A stretch of DNA of 64,000 nucleotides from Desulfobotulus pelophilus (GTDB lineage: Bacteria > Desulfobacterota > Desulfobacteria > Desulfobacterales > ASO4-4), in assembly GCF_026155325.1 (NCBI RefSeq), contig NZ_JAPFPW010000011.1, positions 1 to 64,000 on the forward strand. The letters run 5' to 3'. The stretch's first letter is position 1, and every line of letters starts with the position of its first letter. The notes below the pieces were generated by a model that worked only from the letters and a program-made list of their open reading frames with translations, had not been told where the DNA came from and ran no database searches. Position numbers and translations under genes: made by a program. Below are positions 28,163-43,292 of the stretch, in pieces.

Positions 28163-28279
28163 GGTAAGAAACTCCTTTTATATCTGTCAGGTTACCAGAA
28201 TCAGGGCACAGAAAAAGACAGCCACGCAAGGCGTAAAACAGCCAAGACAGACAACCAGTCTGCGCAGGCAGGACTGCCT

Positions 28280-28422
28280 TATTCTCTTTCATCCGGACTG
28301 TTACCGTCGGCTCCGGCCTTTCACCGGATCTGCTGACCCCCTTCGGGCTGAAGGAGCGCTCGCGGGCTCTCCGGCATAGCCGGAATACCGCCGGTGGGGA
28401 TTTCCACCCCGCCCTGAGAATA
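28280..28422 (-). promoter_or_regulatory. FMN riboswitch (RFN element)
   Basis: On the minus strand this region carries the conserved RFN elements in order: TATTCTCAGGGCGGGGTGGA, ATCCCCACCGGCGGTA, the GAGAGCCCGCGAGCG core, GGTCAGCAGATCCGGTGA, GCCGGAGCCGACGGTAACAG and TCCGGATGAAAGAGAATA. The closing P1 stem uses TATTCTC and GAGAATA. It precedes ribB and binds FMN. No classic T-run terminator follows, so control may be at translation. Confidence 0.95.
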
Positions 28423-28431
28423 AGCAGGCTA

Positions 28432-40162: not shown

Positions 40163-41647
40163 TTACGCAGATGGGCTTTTTTTGGCGTACAGGAAATGGA
40201 ATCCCATCAGCATAACAGCGACAAGTACGTATCCGAGGGCATATTCACTGGACAGATTGAGAGCCAGTCGTGGTGCATGCATAAAACCGGAGGCACTCAG
40301 GGCAGCGGCAATTATGGCAAACACGGAGGCTCTTTTGTACTGTTCATCGATCAGACAGACGAGTATGGAGCCCCAGACAAGCCCCGTGAACATAGCCCCC
40401 TGGCCTAAGGGTACAATGGCCTGGGAAAGGTTGGACACAACCTCACCCGCGGCAATATTGAAACGGGTCATTATGTAATTGGCAAAATAGGGGAACATGG
40501 CAATGACAACCGCAGGGTAATGTTTGTTTTCCACGGAATCAAAGGCCTGGGAGATCATGGAAATGCCCACGAAGACCAGTATGGGTGCAATGACAGGTAC
40601 CGGAATGATGGATGCCATGGCCGCGATGATGCCAAACATGGATGCGAAAAGGAAAACAAAGCCATTTAAAATGGAATAGCCCCTCCCCGCATTCATCCAT
40701 TTTGAACCGATGGAGGCAATGTATACGGTGGTGGGAAATACGCCCCCGAAGAATGTACCGATAATAGTACCTGTACCGTCTGCCGCCTGGGCTTCCTGAA
40801 CATTGTAGCGATCACCGGCGGAAGCCATGGCTTCCACGTTATTCATGGTTTCGATAAAGTTGTAGATGGATATGGGCAGGAGTATGGCCAGAAGTCCCAT
40901 CATTTCGGATGAAAGAAGCTGAAGCCCGTGAAATACACCAAAGGTGGGCAGAGGCAGGTAAAAGCCGAAGGCGGAAAAACCTTCTTTAATCTGGGCAGGG
41001 CTGGAGCTGCCGATGCTGTAAGCAAGAAAGGTTCCGATGACAATGGCAAAAAGAGATGCGGGTATTTTAAACGGCATGGGTTTTTTGGTGATAAGACCGA
41101 TCAGTATGATGGTGAGAACGATGAGACCCACCACAGGCATTTCATAGGTTCGGAAGAAAAGTTCGCCACCGATAAAGGCAAATGCCACACCTGCCAGTGC
41201 TCCCATCATTGCTGCCCTGGGCAGTCTGGAGTGAACCCATTTACCGATAAAGCTTCCGAGAATTTCAATAACCCCCCCCAGAAAGCAGGCAGCCAGACCA
41301 ATTTTCCATGCCAGTTCCGGGTCGCCGGTTATGGTCAGGGCAGGTTTCAGTACGCCGAAAAGATAAATGAACATAACAGGTGTGCTGACACCGTAGGCAA
41401 GGGCTGTAACATCCGTACGGCCTTCTTTTTGTGCCAGTTTTTTGGCCATATGGGCATAATAAAGGTTGCCGAACAGCACGGCAATGGCAATTCCAGGAAT
41501 TACTTTGCCATACACGATGGATGCCGGATAGCCCATGGCCAGCATGGTAATGGTAATGATCACAAAGTTTGCCAGGTTATTCTGGAAGAGAGCAAAAAAA
41601 CCGTCCAGATCTTCCCGTTTAAAAAGTGGATAGTGTACCGACTGCAT
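40163..41647 (-). CDS. NCS2-type purine permease (xanthine/guanine)
   Basis: A 494-residue inner-membrane permease with about 12-14 hydrophobic segments. Stretches such as GVSTPVMFIYLFGVLKPAL, LLPISIYNFIETMNNVEAMA and GGVFPTTVYIASIGSKWMNA belong to the NCS2 fold and resemble AzgA-like proteins. I prefer the ATG at 41647 (after GGGGGGA) to the one at 41671. It follows xpt by 27 bases on the same strand, so the two form a salvage operon controlled by the xpt leader. A hairpin with GGGAGCAG and CTGCCCCC (about 40127-40150) may end the transcript. Confidence 0.85.
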   Translation of the reverse strand: MQSVHYPLFKREDLDGFFALFQNNLANFVIITITMLAMGYPASIVYGKVIPGIAIAVLFGNLYYAHMAKKLAQKEGRTDVTALAYGVSTPVMFIYLFGVLKPALTITGDPELAWKIGLAACFLGGVIEILGSFIGKWVHSRLPRAAMMGALAGVAFAFIGGELFFRTYEMPVVGLIVLTIILIGLITKKPMPFKIPASLFAIVIGTFLAYSIGSSSPAQIKEGFSAFGFYLPLPTFGVFHGLQLLSSEMMGLLAILLPISIYNFIETMNNVEAMASAGDRYNVQEAQAADGTGTIIGTFFGGVFPTTVYIASIGSKWMNAGRGYSILNGFVFLFASMFGIIAAMASIIPVPVIAPILVFVGISMISQAFDSVENKHYPAVVIAMFPYFANYIMTRFNIAAGEVVSNLSQAIVPLGQGAMFTGLVWGSILVCLIDEQYKRASVFAIIAAALSASGFMHAPRLALNLSSEYALGYVLVAVMLMGFHFLYAKKSPSA

Positions 41648-41674
41648 GCATTCCCCCCGTTTGTGCATCAAGAT

Positions 41675-42247
41675 TTAGTGTAAGAATGTTATGGTGCCTT
41701 CTTTCATGGATGCTATGCTTGCAAGGGCCTGAATGTTCAGACCTTGTGCGCGGAGCTTATCACCGCCTCCCTGGAAGTGCTTTTCAATGACCACTCCGGC
41801 TCCCACCAGTGTAGCCCCTGCGCTTTCAACGATTTCACAGAGTCCTCTGATGGCTTCACCTTTTGCCAGAAAATCATCAATGATAAGAACCCGGTCGCTG
41901 GCAGGCAGATAGTGTTTGGAAACCCTGAACTTATATTGTCTCTGCCGTGTATAGGAGTAGACATTACCCTCATAGGTTTCTTTATCCAGATTTAATGATT
42001 CCGTTTTTTTGGCAAACACTACAGGAACGTCAAAATACTGTGCGGTAATGGCTGCAATGGCAATGCCGGAGACTTCAGCTGTCAGGATCTTCGTGATAGA
42101 TTCATTTTGAAAGATTTCTTTAAAGGCTTTACCGATGGCGTTTAAAAGGGGTACATCAAGCTGGTGATTGAGAAAATGATCCACCTTCAGAATATGATCT
42201 CCGATGATACGCCCTTCTTTTATAATTTTATCTGTAAGCAGCTTCAC
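41675..42247 (-). CDS. xpt: Xanthine phosphoribosyltransferase
   Basis: A 190-residue enzyme that makes XMP from xanthine and PRPP. The start MKLLTDKIIKEGRIIGDHIL, the QLDVPLL segment, LTAEVSGIAIA and the PRPP loop VLIIDDFLAKGEA are characteristic of Xpt (194 residues in Bacillus subtilis). The start codon is GTG with AGGAG six bases before. The leader contains a complete attenuator terminator just ahead of the ribosome site. It is paired with a purine permease, and GMP synthase in this genome could convert the XMP further. Confidence 0.92.
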   Translation of the reverse strand: MKLLTDKIIKEGRIIGDHILKVDHFLNHQLDVPLLNAIGKAFKEIFQNESITKILTAEVSGIAIAAITAQYFDVPVVFAKKTESLNLDKETYEGNVYSYTRQRQYKFRVSKHYLPASDRVLIIDDFLAKGEAIRGLCEIVESAGATLVGAGVVIEKHFQGGGDKLRAQGLNIQALASIASMKEGTITFLH

Positions 42248-42270
42248 TACAATCTCCTGTTTTATTTATA

Positions 42271-42297
42271 AAAAAAAGACCGCATCTCCCTGCGGTC
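42271..42297 (-). terminator. Attenuator terminator in the xpt leader
   Basis: On the minus strand GACCGCA pairs with TGCGGTC around a six-base loop and is followed by seven T residues. It ends about 24 bases before the xpt start codon, so it must be bypassed for expression. Confidence 0.88.
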
Positions 42298-42375
42298 AAA
42301 AAAATATGAACTACCGTTGCAAAGCAGTGTGACAGTGGTCTGGCAGAGACTTATGGACCATATTGTAGAAAATTA
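42298..42375 (-). promoter_or_regulatory. xpt leader RNA, candidate unidentified riboswitch
   Basis: The transcript just before the attenuator can form AATATG/CATATT (closing stem) and TGGTC/GACCA, or alternatively CTGCC/GGTAG. It contains ATATGGTCCATAAGTCTCTG, which recalls the purine-riboswitch P2/J2-3 core, but the required P2 and P3 partners are missing. It is therefore listed as an unassigned sensor. Confidence 0.45.
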
Positions 42376-42480
42376 CAATCATTTGAAATGGAAATATTTG
42401 ATTTTTTAGACAGAACAGCATGCTTCCGCGCATGACAAGCGGCGTTGTGCTGGCAGAAACTTCTGTTTTGCCGAATCTTA

Positions 42481-42546: not shown

Positions 42547-42611
42547 AACAGATTCAGATGGCTATTCATGTTACCGGACAACAGGATAATTCTGTACTAA
42601 AGGAGCCTTTG

Positions 42612-43292
42612 ATGATTGTTGCCCCATTTCCTGAAAATGAAACGGAGCGCCTGAGAATGTTGGGATTGTACAGGGTACTGGATACGGCATCGGACAAAAC
42701 TCTGGATGAACTGACAGGTCTGGCAGCGGTAATCTGTGGTACTCCCATCAGCCTCATCAGTCTTGTGGACAAAGAGCGGCAGTGGTTCAAGGCAAGGGTA
42801 GGGCTGGATGTCATTGAGTGGGCACGTCATCTGGCATTTTGCAGTCATGCAATCTTAAAAGATGAAGTGCTGATTGTGGAGGATGCAAGTCAGGACCCGC
42901 GTTTTTGCGGTAACCCACTGGTGACGGGCGATCCTTTGATTCGATTTTATGCTGGCGCTCCCCTTTGTGTGCCGGGTGGTTTTGCCCTGGGCACCCTCTG
43001 TGTCATCGACAGAAGGCCGCGCAGGCTTTCTTCCCATCAACTGGAAGCCTTACAGGTTCTTGGCCAGGCAGTGGTCTCCCAGCTTGAGCTGAGGAGACTT
43101 CAGCAGGATCTGCACTCCCTTGAAAAATTCCTTCCGATGTGTGCATGGTGCCGTTCTGTCCGCACGGATGATGGGAAATGGCAATCTCTGCAGAGTTATG
43201 TGGCCGATATGGTTCCGGTGACCCATGGTATCTGTCCTGTCTGTTCCGGAGAAGCGGAGTGGGGGGAAGAAGACAAAGATGATTCGGAGTAA
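42612..43292 (+). CDS. GAF-domain protein with C-terminal cysteine motif
   Basis: A 226-residue soluble protein. Residues 10-165 form a GAF sensor domain (SLISLVDKERQWFKARVGLD, LCVPGGFALGTLCVID). The C-terminal 55 residues carry MCAWCRSVRTDDGKW and THGICPVC, a four-cysteine motif found at the end of many GAF and PAS proteins and likely to bind metal. There is no output kinase or DNA-binding domain. The start has AAAGGAG before it. It is divergent from xpt. The ligand is unknown. Confidence 0.82.
   Translation: MIVAPFPENETERLRMLGLYRVLDTASDKTLDELTGLAAVICGTPISLISLVDKERQWFKARVGLDVIEWARHLAFCSHAILKDEVLIVEDASQDPRFCGNPLVTGDPLIRFYAGAPLCVPGGFALGTLCVIDRRPRRLSSHQLEALQVLGQAVVSQLELRRLQQDLHSLEKFLPMCAWCRSVRTDDGKWQSLQSYVADMVPVTHGICPVCSGEAEWGEEDKDDSE

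Follow-up and report, generated by a model that had tools for sequence, protein, structure and literature searches.

The leader of xpt in Desulfobotulus pelophilus is probably the eroded remnant of a transferred guanine-class purine riboswitch, with attenuation now fixed and a short block of sequence kept for some other reason, a reading that we put at roughly 60%. Under the proposed scheme, a riboswitch of the RF00167 type would have entered the Desulfobotulus ancestor with an xpt-permease operon from an Alkaliphilus-like Clostridium. Within the genus, the aptamer would then have lost its P2 pairing, L3, J3/1, and P1, and the species analysed here would have lost P3 as well. The terminator of this species probably lowers read-through by a constant amount, without purine control, and a 45-nt block is kept, most plausibly owing to overlap with the promoter or 5' end of xpt. 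The partial homology, the lost pairings, the transfer, and the conservation of the block rest on the results below; fixed attenuation and promoter overlap are inferred. The leader may thereby document, stage by stage, what becomes of a riboswitch once it has moved to a distant phylum: intact in Clostridia, it is partial in D. alkaliphilus and reduced to a fragment in the species of the window, meaning the whole 64,000-nucleotide stretch of DNA that was analysed (contig NZ_JAPFPW010000011.1, positions 1 to 64,000).

The xpt operon and its leader

The xpt gene (41675-42247, minus strand) encodes a xanthine phosphoribosyltransferase of 190 aa from a GTG start codon (42245-42247, minus strand), and its product matches NCBIfam models NF006671 (E 5.3e-78) and TIGR01744 (XPRTase; E 6.5e-68). 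The second operon gene (40163-41671, minus strand) encodes a membrane-type protein of 502 aa, which matched no family of Pfam or NCBIfam at E<=1e-3 and for which no sequence relative with known structure was found at E<=1; it is a candidate purine transporter that the common family models do not cover. Another family of the order has a relative of this gene at 44% identity, with one in-frame TAA (L114; G039:C18:2563-4074).

The leader lies in an intergenic region of 310 bases, in which a 7-pair terminator hairpin, a T8 run, and a ribosome site lie 5' of xpt on the minus strand, with AT-rich sequence further upstream. The next gene upstream (42558-43292), encoding a GAF-domain protein, is divergent, and the leader should therefore carry its own promoter.

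A partial purine-riboswitch aptamer

A sequence-only profile, built from 13 purine-riboswitch aptamers of Bacillota xpt leaders, was run with nhmmer against the window and both congener loci, and the three Desulfobotulus leaders ranked first (E 0.0004, 0.0012, and 0.0036, the next match standing at 8). With a sequence-only Infernal model (R2), the three leaders reached E 8e-5, 6e-4, and 1.2e-3, followed by a match at 1.9. An earlier, sequence-only reading of this DNA had seen part of a purine core in the leader and "no recognisable aptamer". The first observation was borne out, with AATATGG at 42358-42364 as the counterpart of loop L2 and AAGTCTCTGCC at 42342-42352 as that of junction J2/3 (both minus strand); the second is wrong at the sequence level, where profiles of this kind pick this very leader. 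The match, which covers model positions 19-51 of 72, also takes in TCCAT (42353-42357, minus strand) as the counterpart of the P2 3' strand and AGACCA (42336-42341, minus strand) as that of the P3 5' strand. Against the J2/3 core AAGUYUCUACC, the window has one A to G change and the congeners have T to G, the rest being kept; both altered positions are invariant in the 13 canonical aptamers. Over L2-J2/3-P3, the window is identical at 24 of 26 positions to the riboswitch of Peptoclostridium litorale (L034), a score reached in none of 500 shuffles, and this identity includes the variable P2 and P3 strands.

In whole-genome scans, the leader was the best match in all three genomes (E 0.004, 0.03, and 0.06), with runners-up at 0.10 and 0.14, so that the profile score alone would not prove homology, and these modest values weigh against the erosion reading. 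Homology is accepted nonetheless because the site is exactly where a donor-type operon has its riboswitch. The runner-up in the window genome (L109) lies inside a reading frame on the opposite strand and was taken as chance.

Loss of the aptamer fold

The Rfam covariance check that the earlier reading had proposed gave no family for the leader at gathering score and none at E <= 0.2. RF00167 was absent even up to E 10, and the families listed up to that value did not include xanthine-I (the NMT1 motif), which is part of Rfam. Matches at relaxed thresholds (Arrc14, RyhB) were weak and terminator-driven, and were set aside as not credible. Across 58 relatives, no Rfam purine riboswitch exceeded the cut-off, and none whatever was reported in genomes G000-G002. 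The sole gathering-score match in the window, an FMN riboswitch (28277-28425, minus strand; 114.6 bits), lies far from the xpt leader. Finally, a structure-aware model (R1), built from the 13 Bacillota xpt aptamers, matched D. alkaliphilus (G001) at E 0.0054 and the second congener (G002) at E 0.22, and did not report the window leader up to E 10; the scores over the three species describe a graded loss.

The canonical P2/P3 pairing, which the sequence-only reading had also found lacking, is indeed unformed in the window. None of the three Desulfobotulus leaders has a favourable P2 pairing, and the best one in the window, at +2.2 kcal/mol, leaves TCCAT without a partner. Two canonical leaders have P3 regions that fold at -6.7 and -8.9 kcal/mol; the corresponding values are -7.6 for D. 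alkaliphilus, -4.0 for G002, and -1.9 for the window. P3 is thus kept in D. alkaliphilus, weak in G002, and lost in the window, where AGACCA has no 3' partner. No window counterpart was found for L3 (CCGUAAA) or for J3/1 with its specificity base C74, the alignment stopping at the start of L3, and no model aligned a P1 helix in the window. By eye, GATTGTA and downstream strands offer short P1-like pairings only, at a different place in each species, and these were not counted. The aptamer is no longer intact, and, as modelled, its canonical pocket cannot form in the window species.

Acquisition from Bacillota

The sequence profile was used to screen 68 xpt loci of the species-genome collection: 16 leaders, 13 of which had served to build the profile, had a full purine aptamer, one (D. 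alkaliphilus) had a partial one, and 51 had none above noise, two of the 68 loci (L086 and L036) having short upstream DNA. Rfam, applied to 40 of these loci, returned 13 purine riboswitches. Phylogenetically, with 72 xpt proteins in the tree, those of the three Desulfobotulus species group as a single clade (100/99) within Bacillota. Their grouping with Alkaliphilus (L041), Anaerosalibacter, and Peptoclostridium (L034) is weaker (80/83), a point against the erosion reading as formulated. By tblastn, the 502-aa gene is 75% identical to the gene following xpt in an Alkaliphilus MAG (L041) and 58% identical to that in L078, and the xpt leaders of both loci carry a canonical purine riboswitch. 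Because xpt falls inside Bacillota and because these riboswitch-bearing operons resemble that of the window, the guanine-class leader riboswitch, xpt, and the second gene were probably acquired together from Bacillota.

The distribution of the gene and of its leader among relatives is narrow. Within the order, the only close xpt homologs are those of the two congeners, D. alkaliphilus ASO4-4 (G001, locus L029) and G002, at 79-81% identity; among the other 55 relatives, three have a homolog at 41-44% and 12 have distant matches only. In a phylum sample of 297 genomes searched at E 1e-20, only the window's own genome and two others, at 39-43% identity, pass. The motif of the conserved block described below was found without mismatch nowhere else in the 58 relatives; seven one-mismatch sites there, outside the three xpt leaders, were taken as chance. 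With up to three mismatches it was absent from the other 394 of 395 phylum genomes, and it was not found in viral contigs. A literature search found no paper joining riboswitch and Desulfobotulus.

The terminator

An intrinsic terminator directly before the xpt ribosome site, as described in the earlier reading, was confirmed at 42270-42297 (minus strand), 23-50 nt upstream of xpt. Its stem (GACCGCA/TGCGGTC, 42297-42278) has seven pairs, five of them G-C, followed by T8, with a predicted stability of -12.8 kcal/mol. The last hairpins of the two congener leaders reach only -0.2 and -3.1 kcal/mol; the T-run is kept in both and the strong hairpin is not, so that among the three Desulfobotulus species the strong terminator is restricted to that of the window. 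On the three-species alignment, 15 of the hairpin's 20 cells are paired and three two-sided changes occur, a result not clearly above chance, 77 of 500 shuffles equalling it.

The description of the attenuator as complete was not borne out: the strongest pairing between upstream sequence and the terminator 5' arm plus loop was equalled by 257 of 1000 shuffles, and no antiterminator is evident. Pairing of J2/3 with GCAGGGA of the terminator was rejected as an antiterminator on the same figure. The whole leader is likewise no more stable than its shuffles (z -0.58). Nor does it follow from the terminator, as had been argued, that the RNA must sense something, since the hairpin is missing in both congeners though the block is conserved there. 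Conversely, the presence of a terminator and T-run points to a continuing role for attenuation in the window species, which counts against the erosion reading.

A conserved block and a possible promoter

The three Desulfobotulus species share a 45-nt block (42336-42380, minus strand), with GATTGTAWTTTT....AATATGGTYCATAAGTYKCTRCCRGAYCA common to the window and both congeners. The window is identical to each congener at 35 of 45 block positions and at 32 of 69 and 25 of 68 fourfold sites of xpt, respectively (Fisher p 0.0007 and 0.00002, values that are optimistic because the block was chosen for its conservation). The block is thus more conserved than silent sites, so that part of it must still have some function, perhaps that of a promoter. 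Constraint of this kind is not predicted by plain decay, which tells against the erosion reading, as do the poor scores of the promoter proposed to account for it.

This possible but weak promoter, TTGTAA-N17-CATAAG (42350-42378, minus strand), lies inside the block. Overlap with a promoter appears the likeliest reason for the block's retention, because the block is kept without a strong terminator and because J2/3 is not its best-kept part, 3 of 11 positions differing between the window and the congeners.

The same element underlies a rival reading, which we regard as doubtful, in which the block acts as DNA only, as a promoter or a protein operator, and the core-like sequence is untranscribed. 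Both hexamers of TTGTAW-N17-CATAAG and their 17-bp spacing are kept in the three species, conservation between the two congeners starts just before the first hexamer, and a perfect dyad, ATTGTA-N6-TACAAT, can be seen by eye in the window. However, the dyad is absent in the congeners, CATAAG lacks the expected T at both ends, the promoter candidates (PWM scores 5.1, 3.4, and 3.4) rank only 8, 9, and 10, and the element scan that listed the terminator does not include this one. Moreover, a DNA-only role leaves the purine-aptamer match unexplained unless the promoter was co-opted from the aptamer.

Promoters recognized by sigma-54 have the consensus TGG-N10-GC, and, by eye, a sequence of this form fits both congeners inside the conserved block (L002 1388-1416; L029 2381-2428). 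A sigma-54 promoter was rejected for the window, which by eye has TC where GC is expected.

Could the leader still sense purines?

The description of the leader as a diverged purine sensor stands as regards ancestry, given the profile match and the operon transfer, and fails as regards sensing, given that P2, P3, L3, and J3/1 are not retained. It is rather unlikely that a working purine sensor persists in remodelled form, with L2, J2/3, and the P3 5' strand controlling the terminator through a changed fold (e.g., TGGTY/RAYCA). Such a sensor would fit the conservation of the block in three species, the retention of P3 in D. alkaliphilus, and the retention of the counterparts of the ligand-contacting U47 and U51. 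For the purine riboswitch, the ligand contacts described in PMC9295807 include U22, U51, and C74.

The helices that such a fold might use had been proposed as alternatives in the earlier reading, and TGGTC/GACCA and AATATG/CATATT are indeed present as strings, with support no better than chance. On the three-species alignment they are paired in 15 of 15 and 17 of 18 cells, respectively, and shuffled columns score alike. The covariation over homologous leaders that was to back them did not materialize, with no two-sided change in either helix among what are only three sequences. A 5' hairpin drawn by RNAalifold (columns 11-35) consists mostly of invariant pairs and likewise has no two-sided change. 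Thus, the full pairing of TGGTY/RAYCA is in keeping with a remodelled sensor, but the lack of two-sided changes speaks against it, as do a fold stability and antiterminator pairing no better than chance, a J2/3 less conserved than other parts of the block, and two of three species without a strong terminator.

A more particular version, which we consider improbable, is that a sensor arose after transfer without P2 or the canonical three-way junction, in which the old J2/3 would control the terminator by a switch of partners in some Desulfobotulus species and in others would work with no terminator.

An accidental likeness between an unrelated leader and the purine-aptamer J2/3 would draw on the modest genome-wide E-values and their close runners-up, and it is very improbable given that the match sits in the 310-base intergenic region exactly where a donor-type operon has its riboswitch and extends over the P2 and P3 strands of L034, which are variable. 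Least likely of all is the undescribed class that had been raised earlier, with xanthine, guanine, or PRPP as ligand, taken here as independent of the purine fold: a conserved block before a purine salvage gene with no Rfam match would suit it, but its three sequences come from one genus and stand before xpt only, they show no covariation, and purine ancestry accounts for the core.

The erosion reading is preferred. The leader could show whether an aptamer core gets reused after loss of its fold and, if the fragment were still purine-responsive, it would be a smaller purine-binding scaffold than any known.

Comparison with known riboswitch families

Xanthine-I (the NMT1 motif), described in PMC9295807 as entirely different in structure from the purine scaffold, resembles the present leader in having purine-related target genes. 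Guanine-II and xanthine-II, according to the same source, are variants of the guanine riboswitch on the same scaffold, with insertions in J2-3 and J3-1 and the three-stem junction kept, and guanine-II often precedes phosphoribosyltransferase genes (PMC9295807). As far as these variants are characterized there, the leader differs from them in a J2/3 of unaltered length and in the loss of the junction.

Of the known families, the guanine-I purine riboswitch (RF00167) comes closest. The leader lacks most of the defining features of that family: P2 pairing, L3, J3/1, and P1 were not found, the window has also lost P3, scores fall below the Rfam thresholds, and the terminator hairpin is not conserved in the genus; it should not be classed as a functional representative. 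What it shares with RF00167 is the xpt context, L2, the P2 3' strand, most of J2/3, and the P3 5' strand; the window species also has the terminator directly ahead of the ribosome site, as RF00167 xpt leaders do. The setting, a leader before a purine-salvage xpt and a membrane protein gene, is also RF00167-like and would suit control of that kind.
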